A stretch of 46,197 nt of DNA from positions 1 to 46,197 of IMG/VR virus record IMGVR_UViG_3300043419_000955; one strand, written 5' to 3'. The stretch comes from a virus. The notes under the pieces are model-generated. The model did not search any database, was not told where the DNA came from, and saw only the letters and a list, made by a program, of their open reading frames with translations. Made by a program: the position numbers and the translations under genes. This document shows positions 18,251-45,512 of this stretch, piece by piece; positions within the stretch are counted from its first letter, which is position 1; each line of letters begins with the position of its first letter.

Positions 18251-18847
18251 TTATCCCATTTCATTGTCAAGTAAACGTAATGCTACTTTGTCAGTACCAA
18301 AAGCATTTAATTGATCAACCCAGTTCTGCATTTTGTCATGCTCTTCTACTTGTTCTTTCAAGTATTTCAAGGTTAACTCATATAACATGTGATCACCTTT
18401 CTTAAAAGCATCAGTAGCTAGATCTTTAACTTGTTTAGTTACAACAATCTCATGATCGTAAGAATCATGGATGATTTGTGGTAAACCAGAAAACTCTTGA
18501 ATTGGAGCATCCAATCTTGGAGTCATTGGTTGTACACCCATTGCTAACAAATATTCACGCGCCCAATCAGCATGTGCTAATTCTTCATTTGAATATTTTT
18601 TCCACAATGCAGCAGCATTAGTGTAACCATTGTTGTTTAACCACATAGACATTGCAAGATATATTCTTGAAGAATACTCTTCTTGTTCAATGCGATAGTT
18701 AAGATAAGATACGCACTCATCAGATAATAAAATGTTTTTACCTTTTATTGATGGTGCTTTAACTCCAGGAGCAACTGTTGGTGCAGTGCTTTTAACAGGA
18801 GTCGCTAATGTACGTTTTAGCATATTGCCATTGCTTGACTGTTCCAT
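18251..18847 (-). CDS. Ferritin with basic N-terminal extension
   Basis: 198 residues. Residues about 42-195 form a non-haem ferritin. Aligned by eye with E. coli FtnA, the ferroxidase ligands are kept: E57 (QEEYSSRIY), E89 and H92 (NEELAHA), E133 (DHEIVVTKQV), Q166 and E169 (KEQVEEH). It should oxidise Fe(II) and store iron in a 24-mer. Residues 1-40 are an added Pro/Thr/Lys-rich, probably disordered tail not usual for ferritins. The start overlaps the stop of a ring-type gene (TAATG), so it is translated within the virion operon. It could load iron into the virion, guard DNA from oxidation, or scavenge iron in the cell. Confidence 0.85.
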   Translation of the reverse strand: MEQSSNGNMLKRTLATPVKSTAPTVAPGVKAPSIKGKNILLSDECVSYLNYRIEQEEYSSRIYLAMSMWLNNNGYTNAAALWKKYSNEELAHADWAREYLLAMGVQPMTPRLDAPIQEFSGLPQIIHDSYDHEIVVTKQVKDLATDAFKKGDHMLYELTLKYLKEQVEEHDKMQNWVDQLNAFGTDKVALRLLDNEMG

Positions 18848-31875: not shown

Positions 31876-31892
31876 ACATGCAGGTTTTTTAG

Positions 31893-31963
31893 TTGCGGGA
31901 CTAGGAATTGAACCTAGATCTCTAGCTTATGAGGCTTGCATGCTACCACTACACCATCCCGCT
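31893..31963 (-). tRNA. tRNA with anticodon CAU
   Basis: On the minus strand, GCGGGA (31962-31957) pairs with TCCCGC (31900-31895). A D-arm with GUGU/GCAU, an anticodon loop CUCAUAA with C-A-U, and a T-arm CTAGG/CCTAG with loop TTCAATT follow in order. U8 and the G-G of the D-loop are in place. The loop matches that of methionine tRNAs. Two oddities: base pair 1-72 would be A-A, as in a mismatched initiator, and pair 28-42 is A-A. CCA is not encoded. It may be elongator Met, Ile with modified C34, or an altered initiator. Confidence 0.8.
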
Positions 31964-32600: not shown

Positions 32601-32676
32601 TTTATTTAGATAAATAATTGAAAAGAATACAACTATTCAAATGTTTCCCTATCTTAGAAGTGTAGACCTCCACATT

Positions 32677-33324
32677 ATGAAAGAGCCTAAACGTATCCGC
32701 AAGCAAGAAATCAAGTATCAAGTAACTTTAAATGAAGAGCAGAAGGAGGCAAAAAGACTTATTAGGGAAAACCAGATAGTCATTATCACTGGTCGCGCTG
32801 GTTGCGGAAAATCACTTGTATCAGCTCAAACTGCTTTAGACTTCTTATTTAAAGAGGAGTGCGACCATGTGTTTGTAACACGCGCAACCATTGAAGTAGG
32901 TAACTCATTAGGGTTTTTACCAGGTAGTCTTGGAGAGAAGTTTGATCCATACTTAGAAGCATTCATGGAAAACCTTGGTAAATGCTACACAAAAGAGAAG
33001 ATTGATGATATTATAAAGTCTGAGAAAGTAAAGGCATTACCTGTACAGTTCATCAGAGGTAAGACTATTGAAGATATCCTTATAGTAGAGGAAGCACAGA
33101 ACCTTACAAAAGGACAGATGCTAGCAATCCTTACACGATTGGGTAAGACAGGTAAAATAGTCATCAATGGGGACAATGAACAAAAAGACATCAGAGATGA
33201 GTTCAACGGACTCTCTTATGCTATAGAATTATCAAAGAAGATTGATGGTATTGAGTGGATTAAACTAGCACACAACCACCGTTCTGACTTGGTAGGTAAG
33301 ATACTTGAACACGAATACAAATAA
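32677..33324 (+). CDS. phoH: PhoH-like ATPase
   Basis: 215 residues from the ATG at 32677 (MKEPKRIRKQ); an upstream ATG at 32641 would add 12 residues and leave almost no leader. Walker A is GRAGCGKS near residue 38; Walker B is ILIVEEAQN. VFVTRATIEVGNSLGFLPG and IVINGDNEQKDIR are conserved PhoH segments. PhoH proteins are P-loop ATPases related to helicase-like domains and are common in phages; the substrate is probably RNA but is not settled. First rightward gene after the strand switch. Confidence 0.9.
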   Translation: MKEPKRIRKQEIKYQVTLNEEQKEAKRLIRENQIVIITGRAGCGKSLVSAQTALDFLFKEECDHVFVTRATIEVGNSLGFLPGSLGEKFDPYLEAFMENLGKCYTKEKIDDIIKSEKVKALPVQFIRGKTIEDILIVEEAQNLTKGQMLAILTRLGKTGKIVINGDNEQKDIRDEFNGLSYAIELSKKIDGIEWIKLAHNHRSDLVGKILEHEYK

Positions 33325-33546: not shown

Positions 33547-33604
33547 CTATACTTAGTCAGTATAGACAGACCCCCCACCTAATAAGTGCGGGGGTTTCTT
33601 TTTA
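33547..33604 (+). terminator. Double-hairpin terminator after the PhoH unit
   Basis: CTATACT/AGTATAG (33547-33565) is followed by CCCCC/GGGGG (33572-33594) and a T-rich run to 33604. It ends the PhoH transcript. Confidence 0.85.
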
Positions 33605-33875
33605 TGGGTACTAAGGGGTGCAATTTGCAATGAGGATGAAAGTGTGGGTACCTACTATGCAACAACTCCCCGCCCTCACGCAGCGCCATGGGTACCCCCA
33701 TGCTTTTGCCACAGCACACTTGTGTATTAGGTAAAACACTGACATCTCTCTGAGGAAGAACAACAACACACACAGAGGACAGCACACCCACCCACGCCAC
33801 GCACGCAGCCACCCGCACAGCACTCTTGTATGTGTAGACTACACACAGCCAGAGCTTGTACAATGTATTAGTGTA
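33605..33875. other. Gene-free A/C-rich region with a 72-base T-free tract
   Basis: No credible gene is seen. Between 33752 and 33823 the plus strand has no T and is rich in A and C, unlike the AT-rich genome. Hairpins CATGGG/CCCATG (33687-33702) and TGTGTA/TACACA (33831-33845) flank it. It could be an unstructured RNA leader, a single-strand binding site or part of an origin. Confidence 0.45.
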
Positions 33876-33896
33876 CCAAACACCCTTACTAACTAA
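33876..33896 (+). promoter_or_regulatory. Two-box element, copy 1
   Basis: CCAAACACCC, five bases, AACTAA. The first box begins 37 bases before the ATG at 33913. See copies at 34209, 34500, 35143, 35649, 35944, 36620, 37119 and 37904. Confidence 0.65.
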
Positions 33897-33912
33897 TTAA
33901 ACCAACTTTATT

Positions 33913-34173
33913 ATGAAAAACAATTTCCTTTTTGTAGTAGTTAGATTACTAGCTATTGCTGTTCTTGCTTTTATGACTATGAACCCATCTTGTAAAATGT
34001 TTGCTGACGCTATCTCTGGTGATGAACCACAGTATGGCCTTGCTGTTATAGCAGTGTTGTTGATTACATTTACTATTGGCGTGCAGTTCATCTTTGTAGC
34101 ACAGATTGCTACAAGAGACTACAAGTTTTATAGCAGAAAAGAGAAAGTTAACAAGATTGTTGACAAGTTCTAA
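33913..34173 (+). CDS. Small membrane protein
   Basis: 86 residues with two hydrophobic segments, about residues 5-24 (FLFVVVRLLAIAVLAFM) and 42-63 (YGLAVIAVLLITFTIGVQFI). The loop between is short and polar and the C-terminus is Lys-rich, so it is probably cytoplasmic. First of three consecutive small envelope proteins, each with its own two-box element. Early expression of inner-membrane proteins often serves exclusion of other phages or host takeover; that is inference. Confidence 0.6.
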   Translation: MKNNFLFVVVRLLAIAVLAFMTMNPSCKMFADAISGDEPQYGLAVIAVLLITFTIGVQFIFVAQIATRDYKFYSRKEKVNKIVDKF

Positions 34174-34179
34174 TGTATT

Positions 34180-34207
34180 AGAGCAGGACTAACACTCCTG
34201 CTCTTTT
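34180..34207 (+). terminator. Intrinsic terminator
   Basis: AGAGCAGGA (34180-34188) pairs with TCCTGCTCT (34196-34204) and runs into TTTT. It is followed two bases later by the next two-box element. Confidence 0.85.
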
Positions 34208-34208
34208 A

Positions 34209-34229
34209 CCAAACACCCTCATTAACTAA
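34209..34229 (+). promoter_or_regulatory. Two-box element, copy 2
   Basis: CCAAACACCC, five bases, AACTAA; starts 37 bases before the ATG at 34246. Confidence 0.65.
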
Positions 34230-34245
34230 CAAAACCAATAACGAT

Positions 34246-34452
34246 ATGAAAAACTTAATGAAGATTGTAATAGGATTGTTCCTACCTGCAATTATGACTT
34301 TCGCTTTTATTGTAGTAATTGCTACAATGATTTCAGTGTTAACACCTGCTACCTTTATGGATGTCACTACATGTGCACCTGTATGGGTAATAGGTTTCTT
34401 CTTGTGGTTGTTCCTAACTGTTGTAACAGGCAATGAACTACAAGACATGTAA
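34246..34452 (+). CDS. Small membrane protein
   Basis: 68 residues, nearly all hydrophobic, in two segments (IVIGLFLPAIMTFAFIVVIA and VWVIGFFLWLFLTVV). A single Cys lies in the loop. The short tails suggest a two-helix hairpin in the inner membrane. Resembles the preceding gene in layout but not clearly in sequence. Confidence 0.55.
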   Translation: MKNLMKIVIGLFLPAIMTFAFIVVIATMISVLTPATFMDVTTCAPVWVIGFFLWLFLTVVTGNELQDM

Positions 34453-34461
34453 TTTTTGGTT

Positions 34462-34499
34462 TGACCATTTGGCGTGTATAGATTGCACGCCTTTGGTCA
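34462..34499 (+). terminator. Nested hairpin before the lipoprotein gene
   Basis: TGACCA (34462) pairs with TGGTCA (34494) and, inside, GGCGTG (34471) with CACGCC (34486). No T-run follows, but the two-box element begins at the next base. Confidence 0.6.
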
Positions 34500-34520
34500 C
34501 CCAACACCCTCATTAACTAA
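34500..34520 (+). promoter_or_regulatory. Two-box element, copy 3
   Basis: CCCAACACCC (one change), five bases, AACTAA; starts 40 bases before the ATG at 34540. Confidence 0.6.
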
Positions 34521-34539
34521 CCAAATAAATATTTCACTC

Positions 34540-34662
34540 ATGAAATTCTCTTTCTACATCATCGTGCTTTTAAGCATAGTATTGTTCGCTTCTTGTGCTA
34601 CTGAGTCGCACAACTGTAAGCAATGGCGTGTATACCACCAAACTTGTGGTCCAATACACTAA
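34540..34662 (+). CDS. Tiny lipoprotein
   Basis: 40 residues. MKFSFYIIVLLSIVLF is a signal sequence and ASC forms a lipobox, so signal peptidase II would cleave before Cys18 and leave a mature lipoprotein of about 23 residues ending QTCGPIH. The start was chosen by the lipobox and by its distance to the two-box element; an in-frame upstream start at 34474 would destroy the signal. Tiny phage lipoproteins can block receptors or entry, as in lipoprotein conversion systems; this is inference. Two extra Cys may form a disulphide. Confidence 0.65.
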   Translation: MKFSFYIIVLLSIVLFASCATESHNCKQWRVYHQTCGPIH

Positions 34663-34672
34663 AGAACTGTCC

Positions 34673-34699
34673 TGAGCATGACACTAAACTGCTCATTTT
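34673..34699 (+). terminator. Hairpin TGAGCA/TGCTCA (first of a pair)
   Basis: TGAGCA (34673) pairs with TGCTCA (34690) and is followed by TTTTC. The loop contains ACTAAAC. A closely similar hairpin lies at 35101. Confidence 0.6.
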
Positions 34700-34717
34700 C
34701 AATCATTTAATAACCAA
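34699..34717 (+). promoter_or_regulatory. Degenerate two-box element
   Basis: TCAATCATTT followed by AACCAA, 35 bases before the ATG at 34734. The boxes differ from consensus and the spacing is shorter, so this is weak. Confidence 0.35.
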
Positions 34718-34733
34718 CAAAAACAATTGTAAC

Positions 34734-35090
34734 ATGAAAACATTTCTTATTTTTCACCCATCAACTGGTGCAATAAACCATGAGATGAAAAGCGGTGTAT
34801 ATAAGTATGACCTTATACATTCTCTTGAAGCTAACTCGCTGGAAGACGCATTTAAGTTAGCACAAAATGATTTCTCAGAAGAGTATGCTCTCCTTGATAA
34901 AAGAAGCACATGTGTAGGAGATGTCATTATTAACCTTGATGACCAAAGAGTACACCACATGGTAGCAGGTACAGGATTCATTGATATTCCTCGCAATGTT
35001 ATAACATATGTTCCTTGGTACAGTCACATGGAAGATTTAAAAAATGAGTGTGAACTCAACGCATTGGAGAATCAATCTCCTGAATGTTAA
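34734..35090 (+). CDS. Small protein of unknown function
   Basis: 118 residues from the ATG at 34734 (MKTFLIFHPSTGAINH); the frame opens earlier but the earlier part runs through a hairpin. Alternating beta and helix sequence (SLEANSLEDAFKLAQNDFSE, VVIINLDD-type strands) suggests a small globular domain. Flanked on both sides by nearly the same TGAGCA/TGCTCA hairpin. No family recognised. Confidence 0.5.
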   Translation: MKTFLIFHPSTGAINHEMKSGVYKYDLIHSLEANSLEDAFKLAQNDFSEEYALLDKRSTCVGDVIINLDDQRVHHMVAGTGFIDIPRNVITYVPWYSHMEDLKNECELNALENQSPEC

Positions 35091-35100
35091 CTGCTACACC

Positions 35101-35132
35101 TGAGCACGTGAATAAACTGCTCACCTTTTTTT
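35101..35132 (+). terminator. Terminator TGAGCA/TGCTCA (second of a pair)
   Basis: TGAGCA (35101) pairs with TGCTCA (35118), followed after CC by seven T residues. Nearly repeats the hairpin at 34673. Confidence 0.8.
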
Positions 35133-35142
35133 CTAGTCATTT

Positions 35143-35163
35143 CCAAACACCCAAATAAACTAA
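35143..35163 (+). promoter_or_regulatory. Two-box element, copy 4, leading to a non-coding stretch
   Basis: CCAAACACCC, five bases, AACTAA. No ATG-led gene follows at the usual distance; the structured RNA candidate begins immediately after the second box. This is the argument that the element is a promoter rather than part of a coding leader. Confidence 0.65.
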
Positions 35164-35640
35164 CATAACTGTAATCCTGTAAAGGTATTGCAAATGCGCC
35201 CTAGACCTCTACAAAGAGTGCGGGAGCTTCAGACTGAAAGTGTCTGTTACAGTTATTTTTAGCAATAACACATTATAAGCATTTGATGTGTTGTTGCTTC
35301 TCTTAACCTTTATAGGTTGAGTTATATTACTCGCTGTTGGGAGTGAATATGTAAAAACTACAAGGAAGTCCTGGTCAGGATGAGCAGTCAACAGTACAGT
35401 CACCTTACAGCAGTGTAGGGTCAGTCCCCCGAAAGGGATATAAGTGTCCAGCTGGGAACTTGTACTACAGATAGGCGCTGTAGTAATGCTTGAAATTCAA
35501 ATCACTGTTGGTTGTAAGACCATAGCCAACAGTGAAGTGAATGGATTAACTCAACGTGTGCACTGATATCAAAACTCGATATCAAAACCACGCATCAGTA
35601 CCAAACCACCTGCTGCCACATGTGATCAAAACGATTGACT
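35164..35640 (+). ncRNA. Candidate large structured non-coding RNA
   Basis: About 480 bases without a gene on the plus strand, between its own two-box element and the next. Helices seen by eye: an 11-bp outer helix 35165-35175 with 35246-35256; AACACAT/ATGTGTT (35267, 35286); CTTAACCT/AGGTTGAG (35302, 35314); ATTACTC with GAGTGAAT and one bulge (35326, 35341); ACCTTACA/TGTAGGGT (35402, 35414); CCC-GAAA-GGG with a GNRA loop (35428-35437); TATAAGT/ACTTGTA (35439, 35458); TACTACAG/CTGTAGTA (35463, 35478); TCACTGTTGG/CCAACAGTGA (35502, 35526). ATCAAAAC occurs three times near the 3' end. Size and density recall ornate phage RNAs such as GOLLD or ROOL, but I cannot assign a family. Confidence 0.6.
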
Positions 35641-35648
35641 ATTCATTT

Positions 35649-35670
35649 CCAAACACCCTTTGATAACTAA
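35649..35670 (+). promoter_or_regulatory. Two-box element, copy 5
   Basis: CCAAACACCC, six bases, AACTAA; starts 33 bases before the ATG at 35682. The only good copy with a six-base spacer. Confidence 0.6.
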
Positions 35671-35681
35671 ATATAAACCAT

Positions 35682-35930
35682 ATGCAAAAGACTTTATTCC
35701 AACTGAACTACACTACGCAGTTCTTTAATGAGTTAGGAGAAATAAGTTTCTCCATTGATAGCACCAAAACATTCCCTACAAGAATAGGTGCCATCAACCA
35801 TCTACGTGCTATGAAACAATTTACGCACATAGACAATACTGGCGTATTTGTAAACACCTTTCGCAAGTTTAAAGTAAGCGCGTCAGGTAAGAAAATGTTT
35901 GTTAAACTCCCTATACCAGAAATGATATAG
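35682..35930 (+). CDS. Small basic protein of unknown function
   Basis: 82 residues (MQKTLFQLNYTTQFFNEL). A possible beta-helix-beta order, with TRIGAINHLRAMKQF as helix and KFKVSASGKKMFVKLPI at the end. The stop TAG lies inside a 12-bp hairpin, so the 3' coding end also serves as the terminator stem. No family recognised. Confidence 0.5.
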   Translation: MQKTLFQLNYTTQFFNELGEISFSIDSTKTFPTRIGAINHLRAMKQFTHIDNTGVFVNTFRKFKVSASGKKMFVKLPIPEMI

Positions 35931-35937
35931 GGGGTTT
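35904..35937 (+). terminator. Terminator embedded in the end of the 82-aa gene
   Basis: AAACTCCCTATA (35904) pairs with TATAGGGGGTTT (35926) with one G-T pair. The stop codon is in the 3' arm. Confidence 0.7.
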
Positions 35938-35943
35938 AATAAC

Positions 35944-35964
35944 CCAAACACCCTTTTAAACTAA
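35944..35964 (+). promoter_or_regulatory. Two-box element, copy 6
   Basis: CCAAACACCC, five bases, AACTAA; starts 46 bases before the ATG at 35990. Confidence 0.65.
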
Positions 35965-35989
35965 TTATTAACTATAAACCCCACTAATC

Positions 35990-36541
35990 ATGGAACTCTC
36001 AAAAAAACAACAAGAACTAATCATCAAGGCAGGTCACAATGCTATTACAAACAACTCAATTTTGTTTGCAAGAAACATGCCTGTAATCATTGAAGCGTTA
36101 AATTCAGAATTCAGCAATGACCAAGTAAACACGCTCCTTGATATGCTGTTCTGTATTAATGATGAAAGCATCAACCAGATGCCTATCAATCAAACTGTAT
36201 TTGCTATGTATCGTAGTAAGAAAGATGAACGCGTTGAAACTCATTTGATTGACGGTAACATTGAATCTTACAACCCTATTACTAATAAGGTTGTCATCAG
36301 TTACATGTCAGTAAAGACATCACGTAAGTATTTCACAGACGATACTTATGCAACAGAAACTGAAACGCCAACTGATTTCTTTGAAGACAGACTTGTACCG
36401 TCTTACATGACTACAACTTGTGAGAAACTCAAAGACATTGAGTCTAACACACGCAATGCAAAAGAAAACAATGAATGGATTAAAGGCAGTCAGTATTTGA
36501 ATTGGGTATCTGAGTTACCACCTGTTCCTGAGAACCACTAA
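35990..36541 (+). CDS. Protein of unknown function
   Basis: 183 residues. N-terminal half helical (QQELIIKAGHNAITNNS, NDQVNTLLDMLFCIND), centre beta (SYNPITNKVVISYMSVK), C-terminal half acidic and polar. No catalytic or membrane motif. Transcribed as a single unit with its own upstream element; a perfect palindrome follows its stop. Confidence 0.5.
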   Translation: MELSKKQQELIIKAGHNAITNNSILFARNMPVIIEALNSEFSNDQVNTLLDMLFCINDESINQMPINQTVFAMYRSKKDERVETHLIDGNIESYNPITNKVVISYMSVKTSRKYFTDDTYATETETPTDFFEDRLVPSYMTTTCEKLKDIESNTRNAKENNEWIKGSQYLNWVSELPPVPENH

Positions 36542-36542
36542 T

Positions 36543-36558
36543 TGTTCCACGTGGAACA
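36543..36558. promoter_or_regulatory. parS-like perfect palindrome
   Basis: TGTTCCACGTGGAACA is a 16-bp perfect palindrome without a loop. It fits the parS pattern TGTTnCACGTGnAACA and differs by one base from the B. subtilis form TGTTCCACGTGAAACA. It begins two bases after the 183-residue gene's stop. It may bind host or phage ParB, or another dimeric regulator. Confidence 0.55.
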
Positions 36559-36563
36559 TTGTG

Positions 36564-36601
36564 TACAATACAGCACTATTCTAATAGGTAGTGCTGTTGT
36601 A
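36564..36601 (+). terminator. Long hairpin after the 183-aa gene
   Basis: ACAGCACTA (36570) pairs with TAGTGCTGT (36589), extended by TACA/TGTA past a two-base bulge. No T-run, but it has the usual place just before a two-box element. Confidence 0.6.
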
Positions 36602-36619
36602 TACATTCTCATTTCATTT

Positions 36620-36640
36620 CCAAACACCCTATCTATCTAA
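36620..36640 (+). promoter_or_regulatory. Two-box element, copy 7
   Basis: CCAAACACCC, five bases, ATCTAA; starts 36 bases before the ATG at 36656. Confidence 0.6.
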
Positions 36641-36655
36641 CTAAAACTCATACCT

Positions 36656-37069
36656 ATGCAAAAACAACGCATCCCCCTCGCAACCTGTTCAGACTATCAA
36701 CTTGAAACTGAAAACGGTTATGTACGCAGAATCAAAGTTAAAGTAAGCGTATTCTGTTCTTACGAAAGCATTGCTGTGTCCAAGTATCTACAAATCCCTG
36801 TAGACAATTTTACACCAAGTAACTACACAATACTTGTGACAGACTTGTACGATTGTATTGTTGACAGCACACCTGATGAACGTATGCTTAACAGATACAC
36901 AGGTACTGTAGAACAACAGTACAAAGACAAGGTTAAAAGTTTGGAAACAGAGATTATCAGTCTCAAATTCAAATTGCAAAGCCAGTCTTTTAAACTTGCT
37001 GTATTAGCAAACAGACGCTTCAAAGACAGTACTCCACAAGAAATGAGAGACTTGTTTGCGAAACTATAA
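36656..37069 (+). CDS. Small protein with C-terminal coiled coil
   Basis: 137 residues. The first 80 residues are beta-like (VRRIKVKVSVFCSYESIAVS, NYTILVTDLYDCIVD). Residues about 82-115 form a helix (QQYKDKVKSLETEIISLKFK) predicted as a coiled coil, so the protein is probably a dimer or trimer. No family recognised. Confidence 0.5.
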   Translation: MQKQRIPLATCSDYQLETENGYVRRIKVKVSVFCSYESIAVSKYLQIPVDNFTPSNYTILVTDLYDCIVDSTPDERMLNRYTGTVEQQYKDKVKSLETEIISLKFKLQSQSFKLAVLANRRFKDSTPQEMRDLFAKL

Positions 37070-37077
37070 GGTAGTAA

Positions 37078-37107
37078 GGTAGGTAGGGTACACAAACTCT
37101 ACCTACC
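37078..37107 (+). terminator. Hairpin GGTAGGTAG/CTACCTACC
   Basis: Nine base pairs (37078-37086 with 37099-37107) between the 137-residue gene and the next two-box element. No T-run. Confidence 0.6.
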
Positions 37108-37118
37108 CACCACTACAC

Positions 37119-37139
37119 CCAAACACCCAACGTCACTAA
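37119..37139 (+). promoter_or_regulatory. Two-box element, copy 8
   Basis: CCAAACACCC, five bases, CACTAA; starts 37 bases before the ATG at 37156. Confidence 0.6.
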
Positions 37140-37155
37140 TTAAATCCCCATAACT

Positions 37156-37650
37156 ATGTCAGTAACTATCATTACAGACCCAAAGACAGGTAACAAAGTT
37201 CGTTACTACGCGTCTAACCCTGAATTCGCATACTGCGTTATGCAATCTGATAAGATTGTACACAGAGCAGGCGGGTTCATTGACAAGCAGACACGCACCA
37301 CTATCTTGCGTGCTAAGAAAGACATTCTTCAAATGTTTGTCAACACTTATGCTAACAGTCCTGTACCAGGACAGATAGTTGTTAGAGAGTTCACAGAGAG
37401 TGAATGTCCTGAATCTTTTAAGTCACGTCTACGTTCAGACGTTGACTATGAAGTAGCAGTACAACCATTCTTGAAACGTCCACAAGATGATGCTCCTTAC
37501 TTGCGTAAAGAAGGAGACAGAATCTTGCGTTTCACAGATTACGACCCTGATAACGTTATGCAAGACGTGCGTGTAGAACACGACAACCAGGAAGAGATTG
37601 CCCAATGGCGTACAGCAGTACGTGCAGGCGGTGCTAACTTGCCTTCCTAA
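37156..37650 (+). CDS. Paralogue A of a conserved pair, possible nucleic-acid-binding protein
   Basis: 164 residues. Its central part (YASNPEFAYCVMQSDK, PVPGQIVVREFTESECPESF) matches the gene at 37941 (YDSNPEYGYIRLSE, TMPGRICVQEYLESEVPDHI), and both end in NLPS. Beta-rich core, basic surface and late acidic segment (DYDPDNVMQDVRVEHD) would suit a single-strand DNA-binding type fold, but this is inference. Codon use is slightly richer in C-ending codons, hinting at high expression. Confidence 0.5.
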   Translation: MSVTIITDPKTGNKVRYYASNPEFAYCVMQSDKIVHRAGGFIDKQTRTTILRAKKDILQMFVNTYANSPVPGQIVVREFTESECPESFKSRLRSDVDYEVAVQPFLKRPQDDAPYLRKEGDRILRFTDYDPDNVMQDVRVEHDNQEEIAQWRTAVRAGGANLPS

Positions 37651-37721
37651 ACAAGGACAGTGAGCGTAGTAGAAATGCTACGCTCTACACCTTGTCCACA
37701 ACCCTGTCCACAAAACAGGGT
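37651..37721 (+). terminator. Two hairpins after paralogue A
   Basis: An outer ACAAGG/CCTTGT (37651, 37690) encloses GAGCGTAG/CTACGCTC (37662, 37679). A second hairpin pairs ACCCTGT/ACAGGGT (37701, 37715). The remaining 180 bases before the next gene are A/C-rich, with a partial first box (CCAACCACCC at 37743) and no credible gene. Confidence 0.65.
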
Positions 37722-37903
37722 ACACCAATTCACTATCCCATTCCAACCACCCCAAATACTCAGAAAGGGTTACAGCAATAGTGTACCCAGTCAAACTCTC
37801 ATGGATAATCAGAACTGTACCCCGCAAGGAATCAAGACCAAATCAAAACCATGTACACAAACCCACTACCATCCCACCCACTACCCCCATTCACAACCCC
37901 ATT

Positions 37904-37924
37904 CCAAACACCCAACCAATCTAA
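37904..37924 (+). promoter_or_regulatory. Two-box element, copy 9
   Basis: CCAAACACCC, five bases, ATCTAA; starts 37 bases before the ATG at 37941. Confidence 0.6.
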
Positions 37925-37940
37925 TCTAAATTTACACCTT

Positions 37941-38432
37941 ATGTCTAATGTAAGAATTATGCCTAACAAAGCTGGTGCAATGTTCACAGCTTATGACAGT
38001 AACCCTGAGTATGGTTACATTCGCTTGTCTGAAAGCGTACGTAGTATTAACAATGGCTTCATCTCTGTAAAGGAGAAGAGTTGTTTAATACGCGGTAAAG
38101 TGTCTGACCTTCAAGGGTTAATTAAAGACGCCAAGTATGGTACTATGCCAGGACGTATTTGCGTTCAAGAGTATTTAGAATCTGAAGTTCCTGACCATAT
38201 TGTTAATGTCATCCACAATGACAAAGCAATGACGTGGGAAGATGCTATCAAATCGTACGTAAAACGTGCAGGTAATGATGGCATGGAACTTACTTATGGT
38301 GGAGAGCGTATCATCAGATACTCTTTCTATGATGAGACAGGTACTACTGCTGACGTTAAAGTACAGAATGACAACACCGCTGAGGTGCGTGAGTTCTTAG
38401 CTGCACGTAAAGCTGCTAACTTACCATCTTAA
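37941..38432 (+). CDS. Paralogue B of the conserved pair
   Basis: 163 residues from the ATG at 37941 (MSNVRIMPNKAGAMF); an upstream in-frame ATG at 37851 would make the A/C-rich leader coding and is rejected. Shares the beta core and the NLPS ending with the protein at 37156, showing tandem duplication. The first half has SCLIRGKVSDLQGLIKDAKY, the second half DDTAEVREFLAARKAA-like helix. Abundant small proteins of this kind recur in crAss-like genomes, as I recall; ssDNA binding is one possibility. Confidence 0.5.
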   Translation: MSNVRIMPNKAGAMFTAYDSNPEYGYIRLSESVRSINNGFISVKEKSCLIRGKVSDLQGLIKDAKYGTMPGRICVQEYLESEVPDHIVNVIHNDKAMTWEDAIKSYVKRAGNDGMELTYGGERIIRYSFYDETGTTADVKVQNDNTAEVREFLAARKAANLPS

Positions 38433-38597: not shown

Positions 38598-38957
38598 ATG
38601 TCTACTACACAAGAAGAATGTATTTGTCCTTACTGTGACAATCATCATGCAAGTCTTTATCTTCTTATAGAAGAAGGAGAGACCACCTTTTGTGATCAAT
38701 GCGGTTACTATGATGCTCTTTACTATGAAGAGGATGGTAGCATCCACCGCGAAACTGTTAAGAGACCCTACGCTGCTTATGAGTATATCACTACCACAGG
38801 TACTAAGTACTTTGGTACTATCCGCTCTAAGACACACGCGGGTTCTTATACCCAAGATTGTATGGAAGATGAACGCTGTGACACGCTGATATTTCACCGC
38901 TATGTAAACGGTAAGTTCTCAGAAGTTACAAAGTTCTCAAAAAGTAATAACATTTAA
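38598..38957 (+). CDS. Zinc-ribbon protein
   Basis: 119 residues. CPYC near residue 10 and CDQCGYY near residue 33 form the two halves of a zinc ribbon. The rest is beta-rich with many Thr and Tyr (YEYITTTGTKYFGTIRS). Such ribbons occur in transcription- or replication-linked proteins. It starts the denser gene cluster that runs to 42.1 kb; the 165-base gap before it holds a hairpin but no clean two-box element. Confidence 0.6.
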   Translation: MSTTQEECICPYCDNHHASLYLLIEEGETTFCDQCGYYDALYYEEDGSIHRETVKRPYAAYEYITTTGTKYFGTIRSKTHAGSYTQDCMEDERCDTLIFHRYVNGKFSEVTKFSKSNNI

Positions 38958-39478: not shown

Positions 39479-40016
39479 GTTTAGGTCCCGCAGAAAACAG
39501 AAACTTGTCAGAATATTCAGAGTTCTATGTATGACCTTGGCAGGATTGCTAATTGGTACTACACTCTATGAAGCATTCTATGATAAGTTGTTGTTTGTAA
39601 ATAACCCACGTATTCTACCTATCTATATCACCCTTGAGGTATTCCTTATTGGTGATATGGTGGTAGAACTATTGTCAGCAGTCTTTAATCTCTACAGAGA
39701 ATATAGGACTACCTACAGGTGGAACGCTTCGTTAAGCACTCCTCTTTACAAGAGAGATACTAATGGTGAATTAGAACAGATATCAGAACCTGTTAACTTT
39801 GAATTCTACCATGACATACCTACAAGTTATAAACTTCAAGAGATACTTGCCAATTACATATGGCACGTAGCAAATGAAGAAAGATTTGATGATGTGTCAA
39901 ATGAAGCGTTATGCGAGTGGATTAACATGAACACTAACTATCTTGCTGCTCGTAATGCAGAAGACTTAGAACGTCTACAAATGATGTTCTATGAGAAAAA
40001 TCGTTGGATTAGATGA
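39468..40016 (+). CDS. Membrane protein
   Basis: 182 residues with two hydrophobic segments, about residues 19-36 (VLCMTLAGLLIGTTLYEAF) and 50-70 (LPIYITLEVFLIGDMVVELL), then a 110-residue soluble part. The Arg/Lys-rich N-terminus (RSRRKQK) suggests a cytoplasmic start and cytoplasmic C-terminus. It overlaps both neighbours and is coupled to the lysozyme-like gene, so it may act with it at the envelope, for instance as a holin-like partner; this is speculative. Confidence 0.5.
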   Translation: MLNKFRSRRKQKLVRIFRVLCMTLAGLLIGTTLYEAFYDKLLFVNNPRILPIYITLEVFLIGDMVVELLSAVFNLYREYRTTYRWNASLSTPLYKRDTNGELEQISEPVNFEFYHDIPTSYKLQEILANYIWHVANEERFDDVSNEALCEWINMNTNYLAARNAEDLERLQMMFYEKNRWIR

Positions 40017-40549
40017 TCTACAAGTTTGACTTGAATTCTTTACAATTCAAAGAACATCGTCCCAAACCTTGGTGGATTGTCTGGTTACTGACTGTATCAA
40101 TAGTTGGGTTTACTAGTTACCACTATGGTTTTGTAAGAGGTTTTGAATCACCGCGGGAGTATAAAGTGTCTGTCACAACGACGGACACTTTTACACCTGA
40201 AGCGTTTAAGTCATACTTGAAAGACTTACAGATTCAATTCCCTCACATCGTATATGCACAAGCTTGTCTTGAGACTGGACATTTTAGTAGTCAGATTTTT
40301 AAATCTAACAACAATTTGTTTGGTATGAGAGAAGCTCGTGGTAGAGTATCAACAAACAAAGGTGCAGAGAATGGACACGCAGTGTATCAACACTGGCGTG
40401 AATCTGTTCTTGATTATGCACTATTCCAGTGCTGTTATTTGAAAAACATACATTCAGAAGCAGAATACTATGAGTATCTATCAAAGAATTATGCGGAAGA
40501 TAGCACGTATGTCAGTAAAGTTAAGGTGCTTGCGAAAGAATTTAAATAG
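40013..40549 (+). CDS. Membrane-anchored glucosaminidase-type lysozyme
   Basis: 178 residues. A signal anchor lies at residues 19-36 (WWIVWLLTVSIVGFTSY). The catalytic part resembles glucosaminidase family (GH73): YAQACLETGHFSSQIF with E87 as the likely acid, then NNLFGMREARGR, and later SYAED-type segments (SVLDYALFQCCYLKN). It should cut peptidoglycan outside the inner membrane. Signal-anchored form suggests timed release, as in SAR endolysins. It is placed among rightward genes, not in the late operon, so a role other than lysis is possible. ATG overlaps the preceding stop. Confidence 0.7.
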   Translation: MIYKFDLNSLQFKEHRPKPWWIVWLLTVSIVGFTSYHYGFVRGFESPREYKVSVTTTDTFTPEAFKSYLKDLQIQFPHIVYAQACLETGHFSSQIFKSNNNLFGMREARGRVSTNKGAENGHAVYQHWRESVLDYALFQCCYLKNIHSEAEYYEYLSKNYAEDSTYVSKVKVLAKEFK

Positions 40550-42231: not shown

Positions 42232-43518
42232 ATGATCCTCTTACAAACTAGAATTGAAGGTACAAACTATCAAATTCGTCCTTTATCAGGTCAAGCAAAC
42301 CTTGACAAAACGTTAACGTGTCCATTAGAAGACTTGCAAATTAAAGCAACTGTCTCAGACTTTGCACGTTATCCGTTAAACAGCGTGTTTATCTGCACAA
42401 CAGAAGAAATGACATCTGGTGTAGAAATGTTTATCCCAAAGGGTAGTGCAATCCCTGTGTATTTTGAAGATAATATATTCCCAATCACTGAAGCGAACAA
42501 AGAAGAGATTTGGAATTATATCACCACTTACATGATTGATAACCCTGAGATGGGTCATGACCACGCAAAGAAATATGCTGCGTTGGCAGAGAAAGCACTT
42601 GGAATAAAGATTGACATTGAAAAGATGTTGACTCCAAAGATTGATGAAGCAACAGGTAAAATGGAAGCAGGTGCTAACTTCCGTAGAAGTTTGACTGCTA
42701 TGTATCCTGCACCTAAAGTTGAAGACTGCGGATTCCAAGTTGACCAAGACAAATGGTATCTTATGGTTCGTAACGTGTTACGTGGTGAGAATACTATGTT
42801 GGTAGGTCCTACTGGTTCTGGTAAAACAGAAATGATTGCATTACTTGCAAAGACTATGGCAAGAGAATTGAATATCCAAGACATGGGTACTGTTCAAGAT
42901 GCTCAGTCTGCATTGCTAGGTGTGCATCGTTTGAATAAGGAAGGTCACTCAGAATTTGAGTTTGCTCCATTCATCAGTCACGTTCAATCTGGTGGTTTAG
43001 TTTTATTGGATGAGCTGAATCGCTCTCCACTTGCTGCAAACAATATCTTATTCCCTGCATTAGACAAGCGTCGCTACATTCCTGTAGATATCGCTTGTGA
43101 ATCTTGTGATCGTAAGATTAACATTCACCCTGATACTGTGTTCTTTGCAACTGCAAACTTGGGTGCAGAATATTCTGGTACTCAAGCAATTGACCGTGCA
43201 TTGTTAGACCGCTTCATGCCAATTGAGTTGGATTATCCACGCGAGGCTGAAGAAATTCGTGTGCTAATGTTGCGTACAGGTATTGGTGAGAAGCAAGCAA
43301 AAGCAATTGTAAAGGTTGCTAATGAGATTCGTAAGCAGTCGAAAGAACAAGAGTTGTCTAACGCAATTTCTGTTCGTCATACCCTACAAGCTGCTAGTCT
43401 GATTGCAGATGGTTTTGAAACTGAGAAGTCTTTACTTTCAGTTATCATGCCTTTGTTTGAAGATGGTATTGGAGTATCAGAACGCTCTAAGGTGTTGGGT
43501 ATCGTTAGTGCATTTTAA
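42232..43518 (+). CDS. MoxR-type AAA+ ATPase
   Basis: 428 residues. Walker A GPTGSGKT at 192-199, Walker B LVLLDELNRS with D260/E261, sensor 1 ATANLGAEYSG with N309, and the DRALLDRF segment with an arginine finger near R327. The linker GGLVLLDELNRSP is typical of MoxR / NorQ / CobS-type ATPases. The N-terminal 170 residues contain a helical domain of unknown use. These ATPases act with VWA partners to remodel or activate targets, which is what the next gene encodes. No T4-like helicase motif is seen, so a replicative helicase is unlikely. Confidence 0.85.
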   Translation: MILLQTRIEGTNYQIRPLSGQANLDKTLTCPLEDLQIKATVSDFARYPLNSVFICTTEEMTSGVEMFIPKGSAIPVYFEDNIFPITEANKEEIWNYITTYMIDNPEMGHDHAKKYAALAEKALGIKIDIEKMLTPKIDEATGKMEAGANFRRSLTAMYPAPKVEDCGFQVDQDKWYLMVRNVLRGENTMLVGPTGSGKTEMIALLAKTMARELNIQDMGTVQDAQSALLGVHRLNKEGHSEFEFAPFISHVQSGGLVLLDELNRSPLAANNILFPALDKRRYIPVDIACESCDRKINIHPDTVFFATANLGAEYSGTQAIDRALLDRFMPIELDYPREAEEIRVLMLRTGIGEKQAKAIVKVANEIRKQSKEQELSNAISVRHTLQAASLIADGFETEKSLLSVIMPLFEDGIGVSERSKVLGIVSAF

Positions 43519-43595: not shown

Positions 43596-45512
43596 ATGTC
43601 TAGAAAGACTTTTAAAACTGACTGGTTTAATAGAAGTTCAGAACATGATTATACTTTCTATGATCCAAGCAAACGTTTGTTTAACTGGGATGATGGACTG
43701 GATAATTACAGTTCTTACTTCATGGCAAAAAATCCTGTTAGTGATGCAGGAAAATTCTTAGGTAGTATGTTCAGAGTACTGGGCATAGGTAAGGATAAAA
43801 AGTTCACTATTACAGGTAATGATACTGTTGAGAAGACACGTTCTTCACATAAAACAGACTCTCCTGTTATTCAAGTACCTATCAACATGTTGCGTGATGA
43901 TAAAGGTGTATACGTAGAAGACAACAGTATTGTTGATGCTTTTTATGGTGCATCTATTCAGAATGCATCTATGGCTACCATGCAGACTAAAGCAGAATAT
44001 ATACGTTCTCTTGAGTTGCGTGGTTACAAAAGTGATAGTACTAAAGACGATGACCGTTCTGATACAACTAAATATCTTGCGTCTCTGTTGAATTCAGAAC
44101 GTATAGATAAAAAGTTGTCAGATAAATTCCCTGGTTATCTTAAGTTTGTTCAGAAATACAAGAATCATGCATATTCAAAGATGCAGGAGGAAGATGTAAT
44201 GGCAGAACTTATGAAAGATAAAGGCACACAACTTCTTGATCTTGTCACAAAGATGATTCGCTATCCAGCAGACATCAGTGAAGATCAACTAGAAGAGTTT
44301 GCTGAACCATTGTCAAAGATTAAACATTTATTACAGAGCGAAGGTGGTATTCCTGATTCTCTTACTAAATGTGAAAGTCTTGCAGGTAAACTATCTAAAC
44401 TTCTTTATGAAATCGAACCTCCTCCTCCAGGTGGTGGTGGCGGTGATAGTGATGAAGATAAAGATGGTGACGGTGATGGTGACAGTAAAGATGGTGGCAC
44501 AGGAGAAGGTGAAGGTGATAAAAGCAAAGGTTCAAGCAAAGGTGGTAAACCAATGGATGAAGCAGCACGTAAAATGATGCGTTCTCTTATCAATGCTGGT
44601 ATGAAAGATGATTCTGTATCAAGTAAAGATTTAAAAGACTTGCATGAGTTTGATTCTAGTACTAAAGAAGCAGATGGTTTTGAAGAAAAAGGTGAAGTTT
44701 ACAGTTCTACTGTTAGTTTTGCTACTGCTACTGAAGACAAAGAATCTTATTTAAGAGTACGTGAAAAGCTTGATATGTCAAAAGCACAGACACTTGCACG
44801 TCTTTTTGCGCGTAAGAACAAAGATTATAAGTTTAGCATGAAGTCTATGCGTTCAGGTAGATTGGATACTGATAAGTTAGCAGAAGCTGTACAAGGTGTT
44901 CCAAGTATCTACGAGCGTATTGGCCAAGTGAAGACTAATAAGATTTGCGTTGGTGTTCTTATTGATGAGTCTGGTTCTATGGGCGGTGGTAATAAAATGA
45001 AGAAAGCAAAAGAAGCAGCAATATTCATCAATGAAATCTTCAGAAAGATGCAAGGTGTAGAGTTATTCATTTATGGTCACTCTGCTGATATGGAAGAAGA
45101 AGGAACTACTGACATGATAACTTATCGTGAACCAGGTAAAACTAACATGTATGCTTTAGGTAGTTGCAGAGCACGTATAGAGAATAGAGATGGTGATGCA
45201 ATTTTAGCTACTGGTATGCGTATGCGTAAGTTTACACAAAACGCTGGTATTCTGTTTGTTATATCTGACGGTGCTCCATGCGCTCACAGATATAATGGTG
45301 CAAGTGCAATTGAAGACACAAAGCAAAAGGTCATAAAGACTGAAGCTTTAGGTTTACAAGTCATTCAGATTGCAATTGAATCTTCTGTACCTTCTGAGAG
45401 AATGTTTAAACATTTCATTCAAATGACTGACATTGAGAACTTACCTACCGATATGGTTAAGTTCTTGAGCAGAAAAATTGATCATCTCATCAAGGAAAAG
45501 GTTTTTGTTTAG
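43596..45512 (+). CDS. VWA-domain protein, CobT-like partner of the MoxR ATPase
   Basis: 638 residues. Residues about 450-638 form a von Willebrand A domain with MIDAS: D457-E-S459-G-S461, then the Thr in PGKTNMY and the Asp in FVISDGAPC. The middle (about 275-315) is an acidic Gly/Asp-rich linker (GGGGGDSDEDKDGDGDGDSK), as in CobT and NorD. The N-terminal 270 residues are helical and unique. With the upstream MoxR gene it makes the common ATPase/VWA pair. The sequence does not show the substrate. Confidence 0.8.
   Translation: MSRKTFKTDWFNRSSEHDYTFYDPSKRLFNWDDGLDNYSSYFMAKNPVSDAGKFLGSMFRVLGIGKDKKFTITGNDTVEKTRSSHKTDSPVIQVPINMLRDDKGVYVEDNSIVDAFYGASIQNASMATMQTKAEYIRSLELRGYKSDSTKDDDRSDTTKYLASLLNSERIDKKLSDKFPGYLKFVQKYKNHAYSKMQEEDVMAELMKDKGTQLLDLVTKMIRYPADISEDQLEEFAEPLSKIKHLLQSEGGIPDSLTKCESLAGKLSKLLYEIEPPPPGGGGGDSDEDKDGDGDGDSKDGGTGEGEGDKSKGSSKGGKPMDEAARKMMRSLINAGMKDDSVSSKDLKDLHEFDSSTKEADGFEEKGEVYSSTVSFATATEDKESYLRVREKLDMSKAQTLARLFARKNKDYKFSMKSMRSGRLDTDKLAEAVQGVPSIYERIGQVKTNKICVGVLIDESGSMGGGNKMKKAKEAAIFINEIFRKMQGVELFIYGHSADMEEEGTTDMITYREPGKTNMYALGSCRARIENRDGDAILATGMRMRKFTQNAGILFVISDGAPCAHRYNGASAIEDTKQKVIKTEALGLQVIQIAIESSVPSERMFKHFIQMTDIENLPTDMVKFLSRKIDHLIKEKVFV

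Follow-up and report, generated by a model that had tools for sequence, protein, structure and literature searches.

Background

The nearest described parallel to the locus treated here is found in Thermus phage P23-45, in which promoters with a pre-early motif were mapped and proposed to be those of the tail-fused virion RNA polymerase gp96 (PMC10770324). The assignment of the motif to gp96 is the authors' own proposal, made from chromatin immunoprecipitation sequencing (ChIP-seq) and mapping, and, in the parts of the article available, relatives of P23-45 without the polymerase are also without the motif (PMC10770324). Here we describe a two-box element, CCAAACACCC-N5-AACTAA, which occurs in nine copies, all on the plus strand, within positions 33876–37924 of a 46,197-base stretch of viral DNA (IMG/VR record IMGVR_UViG_3300043419_000955; hereafter the window). 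We favour, with moderate confidence, the interpretation that the nine elements are promoters of one-gene, probably early units and are read by the virion RNA polymerase of the phage.

As far as the available text on P23-45 permits comparison, that phage resembles the present one in having a conserved motif that precedes the starts within one region of its genome and a giant virion two-barrel polymerase; seven termination sites with a common motif lie in the same region. It differs in that its motif is AT-rich and its RNA ends have been mapped, whereas the present element is C-rich, has two boxes, is known from sequence only and varies in spelling among relatives. By analogy, the virion-polymerase promoters of P23-45 are a precedent for the array. 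The closest solved relative of the crAss-like two-barrel polymerase given in the same text is the RNA-interference polymerase QDE-1 (PMC10770324).

The window is part of a 111,924-bp contig, G001 (IMGVR_UViG_3300046820_000975), to which it is 99.998% identical over its full length. Its proteins identify it as a piece of a crAss-like phage (Crassvirales) genome; its terminase has matches in 140 phage records which, among the 20 matches listed, are 24–26% identical and carry mostly crAss-like names, and its portal, major head/capsid and terminase proteins match PHROG families. CrAss-like phages are very abundant. The RNA polymerase gp66 of one of them, phi14:2, is said, in 2021 work by Drobysheva, to transcribe early genes. 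The catalytic region of gp66 is homologous to that of the G001 polymerase, whereas by eye no such repeated element stands before the first phi14:2 genes. The virion RNA polymerase of phage N4 likewise uses early promoters, which are small hairpins; here, in contrast, the 40 bases beginning at box 1 are unfolded under RNA parameters (0 kcal/mol in 9/9 copies; random mean -4.3). No promoter motif for crAss-like phages was found in the titles and abstract openings searched, most of the subscription literature being out of reach, and priority cannot be claimed; none is given in the available parts of three articles (PMC8375218, PMC12118408, PMC10770324).

Leftward genes, those of the virion among them, occupy the left part of the window, and rightward genes, several of them for replication, occupy the right (DnaB, DnaG zinc finger, AAA_24, UDG and thymidylate synthase by Pfam). 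The array starts shortly after PhoH (32641–33324), near the point at which the two blocks diverge.

The two-box element

Box 1 is CCAAACACCC in eight of the nine copies and CCCAACACCC in the remaining one (34500), while box 2 is AACTAA in six copies, ATCTAA in two and CACTAA in one. The boxes are five bases apart in eight copies and six in one (35649). An earlier reading of the window, made from the sequence alone (the sequence-only reading), had listed the same nine copies, and its coordinates, sequences and tallies of box 2 and spacing are all correct. Across copies the box columns are nearly invariant and the spacers and flanks are variable.

The element is highly exclusive to the array. 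With up to three mismatches the window yielded eight matches against a shuffle mean of 0.51 (100 shuffles; the largest count was 6 and none reached 8). Copies inside genes or on the opposite strand had been named beforehand as the observation that would tell against a promoter; in a scan of the whole of G001 at up to two mismatches, all eight matches fell in the array, with none on the other strand and none for the reversed pattern, so that the promoter reading was not refuted on this count. In twenty second-order Markov genomes the two-box pattern had a mean count of 0.05 and a maximum of 1, and when both strands of G001 were scored with a two-box matrix, the nine copies reached 27.6–29.6 and the next-best site 15.1. 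The same two-mismatch scan of the other 19 records found a single two-mismatch match in each of three, and a match to the backward control in one. Box 1 alone, at one mismatch, is less exclusive in G001 (12 sites; Markov mean 3.65, maximum 8), and a weak tenth copy, CCAACCACCC, lies at 37743 without a box 2. Ten other viral contigs with an exact match had one match each at up to two mismatches in the stretch examined, and these were judged to be due to chance.

Leaders and upstream hairpins

The first box lies 33–46 bases before an ATG in all eight coding units, as had been claimed; the distance described as usual, 37, applies to four of the eight. From box 1 to the ATG these units contain only 3 G in about 303 bases, a count extended in one leader by a single base of the ATG. 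In the units, G accounts for 1.3% of the last 20 bases before the gene and 1.3% of the 20 before those, against 7.5% and 14%, respectively, in 30 other genes.

Upstream of the boxes, the 60-mer ranked within the top 2.2% for stability against 400 random G001 60-mers in five of the nine copies, and these five hairpins were also within the most stable 4.3% of 1500 random window 60-mers. The sequence-only reading had placed a terminator-like hairpin before each copy and drawn on it to argue for a promoter; the claim goes too far, and the argument carries only partly. Over the five element spellings described below, 16/27 sites were in the 2.5% tail, G019 and G021 being related so that not all of these sites are independent. 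A strict scan for intrinsic terminators across 32.4–46.2 kb returned 15 sites (7.7 expected), of which only 33934 and 35302 are inside the array on the plus strand.

A structured stretch behind one copy

No long plus-strand frame is present between the copy at 35143 and the gene start at 35682. The sequence behind this copy folds strongly (35166–35480, -101.2 kcal/mol, z -4.09; 0/100 shuffles as stable). Lack of a long frame and strong folding bear out the earlier description of a non-coding stretch, except that it holds a 22-codon frame from the ATG at 35194. Rfam gave no match at the gathering score and two chance-level microRNA matches below it. In the fetched loci of other viruses the best match had an E-value of 0.002 over 34 bases, which is not convincing, and the best match among phage records outside its own virus had an E-value of 0.1; an 18-base piece was found, among viral contigs, only in the same virus. 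From its folding and frame content, the stretch at 35164–35640 is probably a non-coding RNA gene and a candidate new phage RNA. That this copy stands before folded sequence in which no long gene is present is, in our view, the strongest single argument for an action of the boxes on DNA.

In L107 (8175) and L142 (14016), lineage-specific elements also lead into G-containing stretches. These fold moderately better than shuffled sequence (z -2.2 and -1.9, respectively) and are perhaps further small RNA units.

Host-type promoters

In the Bacteroidetes, the sigma-ABfr promoter is described, in the available text, as having TTTG near -33 and TAnnTTTG at -7 (PMC7366714). It is two-part, like the present element, and matches to it precede some other genes of the window phage; its sequence and spacing are different, and none is present on the plus strand of the array. 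The pattern TTG-N17-21-TAnnTTTG has 17 sites in G001 (7 and 10 per strand), which is no excess over the Markov expectation of 10.8 per strand. Four of the 17 are intergenic, 52–70 bases before a gene and two in each direction, intergenic DNA being 5.0% of G001. Within 33.5–38.6 kb there was no TAnnTTTG on the plus strand and one on the minus strand (36740, within a gene). A sigma-70-type scan of 32.4–46.2 kb gave 48 sites against 44.3 expected.

Element spellings in related phages

Related genomes have lineage-specific spellings before orthologous genes. At the orthologues of the last two unit genes, relatives have elements of similar layout and different spelling at the same place. TWYACMCCCC-N8-CAGT has four exact matches in G021 and three in G019; at up to one mismatch there are five on one strand in each of these genomes, with a sixth in G019 on the opposite strand. 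Elsewhere in the 16 records scanned it has five one-mismatch matches over three records, one of them inside an element of another spelling, and its backward control has two. AACCTTCAACYCMC-N8-TCA has exact matches in G006 (four), G023 (two) and G024 (two) and none in the other 13/16 records, with no backward-control match in the 16 records and a Markov mean of 0.00 for G006. TACYCACCAYC occurs twice in G020 and four times in G018, where all four lie on one strand and no more than 1.7 kb apart; it is absent from the other 11/13 records. Finally, AANCCCC-N8-TYAGTATTA, at up to two mismatches, has one or two copies in each of G002, G003, G030 and G033–G036; of 17 records, ten had matches, seven of them of the G002/G003 kind. 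The TWYACMCCCC and AACCTTCAACYCMC spellings are solid, whereas the TACYCACCAYC and AANCCCC spellings are thin.

The counts are purely descriptive, since the patterns came from the sequences in which they were counted. Independent support comes from the spacers, which differ among copies within a genome, and from the near absence of each spelling from other lineages. Between the boxes there are five bases in G001 and about eight in the relatives. A search by expectation maximisation (EM) on whole-genome upstream sets returned weak motifs only. A 9-mer enrichment test, from which near-identical loci and those with fewer than 3,000 bases downstream of PhoH or fewer than four upstream windows had been dropped beforehand, gave a signal above shuffles in one of 21 loci only; for this reason the elements of the relatives were read by eye beside the orthologous genes.

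The giant RNA polymerase

G001 encodes a 4,442-amino acid protein with the sequence GSDFDVD (a DFDxD site), the first aspartate of SDFDVD being residue 2728. By tblastn it matches the catalytic subunits of crAss-like RNA polymerases in 60 records, including that of crAss002, and hhalign aligned it with phi14:2 gp66 / crAss001 gp50 (97.6%, E-value=3.5e-12) over the catalytic site. A sequence search of solved structures gave no match, and its sole PHROG match is DprA-like, near the C-terminus. By homology, the polymerase would be carried in the virion.

This protein diverges fast. Over the main matched stretch the G001 polymerase is 36.5% identical to that of G003 and 34.4% to that of G006, compared with 88.7% for the capsid, 74–78% for the portal and 75–78% for the terminase proteins of these phages. 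The polymerase core was found in 12/20 records searched, of which nine were compared, the spelling being known for seven (not G005 and G026). Core identity is 95% between G002 and G003 and 99% (232 residues) between G006 and G023, each pair having a common spelling; it is 63–70% between the G002/G003 and G006/G023 groups and G019, 45–48% from G001 to these, and 36–41% for G018. In the seven genomes the polymerase similarity groups match the spelling groups, and G001 is set apart both in its polymerase and in its box spacing. The terminase groups the same genomes alike, so that the match between polymerase and spelling is agreement rather than proof.

Interpretation and alternatives

Promoters of short units are the simplest reading of the strict strand, the place before an ATG, the unit without a long gene, the absence of a host-type promoter and the hairpins close upstream of many copies. 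Because the copies in one genome have a common, lineage-specific spelling, their reader would be phage-encoded, and the giant polymerase is proposed since it is the only transcription enzyme found in the genome. The sequence-only reading had preferred a promoter to a translation signal and had offered the phage's own RNA polymerase as one of two readers. Both choices are the best supported, if unproven, given the strand and placement of the copies, the copy before the structured stretch, the restriction of host-type promoters to other regions, the lineage spellings and the fast-diverging polymerase.

We infer the following course of events from the sequence. The reader of the C-rich, G-free box 1 and of box 2, at their fixed spacing, would be the giant single-polypeptide polymerase, delivered with the virion, or some partner that the phage provides, and RNA synthesis would begin downstream of box 2 but before the start codon, so that the leaders would be short and G-free. 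Each element would act as the promoter heading a one-gene (or one-RNA) unit, and the hairpin directly upstream of several may end the preceding unit. The units would be early genes, expressed before the host polymerase works from TAnnTTTG promoters elsewhere.

Several observations weigh against this interpretation. The G-free tract is not confined to the leader but takes in box 1, as would also be expected of a leader element that is transcribed. The strict intrinsic-terminator scan puts no terminator directly before any box, and the hairpins are for that reason possibly not terminators. That elements stand before single-gene units, as had been stated, is true of the eight coding units, and yet the array also contains a gene without an element (34734–35090). 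The spelling of the window is known from one virus, which was also the only one of 21 loci in which 9-mer enrichment exceeded shuffles, and the spellings of relatives were tallied in the very genomes from which they had been picked by eye. Of these, TACYCACCAYC is short and has eight backward-control matches over five of 13 records, and the AANCCCC pattern has only one or two copies per genome, single matches in three records of unrelated spelling and four backward matches. L109 has two looser box-1 matches that do not directly precede a gene, and by eye the early-side upstream regions of phi14:2, crAss001 and crAss002 share no strong element. Lastly, the joint divergence of element and polymerase is not separable from that of the genomes as a whole, and a 1,574-amino acid virion protein is also down to 60–61% identity.

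One of the two main rivals, suggested by the inclusion of box 1 in the G-free tract, is a leader element, that is, a signal in the 5' mRNA leader for translation or stability, read by a phage RNA-binding protein or the ribosome. We consider it unlikely. The set distance to the ATG, the unfolded and G-free sequence in between and the lack of strict terminators before the boxes are all consistent with it, and AACTAA shows a modest excess upstream of other genes as well (8/96, against 3.4% of random 60-mers). CACCC or CCAAAC, however, was found upstream of 0/30 other genes having at least 40 upstream intergenic bases; several boxes have a stable hairpin next to them, and the region lacks a host-type promoter. 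At 35143, furthermore, both boxes are intact although the leader has G (from box 2 to the ATG at 35194, 5 G in 30 bases, the coding units having 1 in 135, with one ATG base counted in one leader; Fisher p 0.0008) and only the 22-codon frame follows.

The boxes would still be promoters under the other main rival, which we rate as improbable: sites for the host RNA polymerase, redirected by a sigma factor or an activator of the phage. A phage-directed host sigma factor was the second reader offered before. A two-box layout of fixed spacing is also typical of sigma factors, and use of the host polymerase as well is suggested by the host-type promoters found elsewhere in the genome; the boxes and their spacing, however, are unlike TTG-N17-21-TAnnTTTG. 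Among 32/52 rightward frames of at least 70 amino acids no sigma or other transcription-factor domain scored above the Pfam cut-off, the other 20 frames, which leave room for such a factor, being outside the scan. Two transcription-factor names below the cut-off, at 38598 (SBP, E-value=0.035) and 38972 (AATF-Che1, E-value=0.005), were chance-like and were set aside.

A reading of the copies as operators, as sites bound by another protein (in repression, packaging or replication) or as remnants of duplicated cassettes fits their clustering in one region and the similarity of two unit genes, but is very unlikely given the strict orientation and start-codon distance, the unrelated spacers and flanks among copies and the lack of a nearby host-type promoter for an operator to control.

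Features of the array and neighbouring genes

The features of the array are collected in Table 1. Pfam assigned no function to any unit gene scanned; in the unit-gene comparisons the rows for genes 34540 and 34734 were disregarded, their frames being one base off.

Table 1. Copies of the two-box element, genes and candidate RNA in the array (window coordinates; numbers after ATG positions are distances from the start of box 1)
Feature	Position	Strand	Remarks
Copy 1	33876..33896	+	CCAAACACCC-N5-AACTAA; ATG 33913 (+37); nothing unusual upstream
Unit gene, 86 aa (amino acids)	33913..34173	+	No Pfam match
Copy 2	34209..34229	+	Hairpin runs right up to box; ATG 34246 (+37)
Unit gene, 68 aa	34246..34452	+	No Pfam match
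Copy 3	34500..34520	+	Box 1 CCCAACACCC; hairpin runs right up to box; ATG 34540 (+40)
Unit gene, 40 aa	34540..34662	+	Lipoprotein-like, by eye
Array gene without own element	34734..35090	+	Start picked by eye; longest frame from 34623; weak hairpin upstream
Copy 4	35143..35163	+	Weaker hairpin and T run upstream; structured stretch downstream; first ATG 35194, 22 codons
Candidate structured non-coding RNA	35164..35640	+	From folding and lack of a long plus-strand frame
Copy 5	35649..35670	+	Spacing 6; ATG 35682 (+33); nothing unusual upstream
Unit gene, 82 aa	35682..35930	+	No Pfam match
Copy 6	35944..35964	+	Stable hairpin ending 1 base upstream; ATG 35990 (+46)
Unit gene, 183 aa	35990..36541	+	No Pfam match
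Copy 7	36620..36640	+	ATCTAA at spacing 5, perfect AACTAA at spacing 9; stable hairpin 14 bases upstream; ATG 36656 (+36)
Unit gene, 137 aa	36656..37069	+	Pfam match below cut-off only (E-value 0.014)
Copy 8	37119..37139	+	CACTAA; stable hairpin ending 2 bases upstream; ATG 37156 (+37)
Unit gene, 164 aa	37156..37650	+	Similar to gene 37941..38432; orthologues in relatives
Copy 9	37904..37924	+	ATCTAA; preceding 60 bases without hairpin; ATG 37941 (+37)
Unit gene, 163 aa	37941..38432	+	Orthologues in relatives

About 260 bases ahead of the array (33610–33870) have no plus-strand frame of 60 amino acids; they lie between the first element and a GC-rich hairpin with a T run, which was seen by eye at approximately 33570–33606 and is absent from the list of the strict terminator scan. 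Between the leftward and rightward blocks lies a tRNA-Met (CAT) gene (31892–31963, minus strand); in L097 and L107 a tRNA-Met is likewise found about 1.4 kb away from PhoH. Genes for transfer-messenger RNA (tmRNA) are present in phi14:2 (L194, 4031–4500) and in a relative of the window phage (L132, 6687–7062).

Among the virion genes is one for a ferritin-like protein (18251–18847, minus strand; PF00210, E-value=2.8e-22). The rightward block encodes a glucosaminidase domain (40013–40549, plus strand; PF01832, E-value=4.1e-15) and a chelatase-like pair on the plus strand, comprising an AAA ATPase (42232–43518; AAA_5 and CbbQ_C) followed by a CobT-type VWA protein (43596–45512).

Significance

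We further suggest, tentatively and with less confidence than the promoter reading itself, that relatives whose terminases are 72–82% identical have fast-evolving bipartite promoters which would be mutually unreadable, each polymerase and its promoters forming an orthogonal pair, and that the early region may be a series of promoter-gene-terminator cassettes, one of which would make a structured non-coding RNA. As a short, strict and repeated candidate with variants in relatives, the element makes the choice of start sites by the polymerase directly testable. The array also points to genes that are probably early and to a candidate non-coding RNA of the phage.

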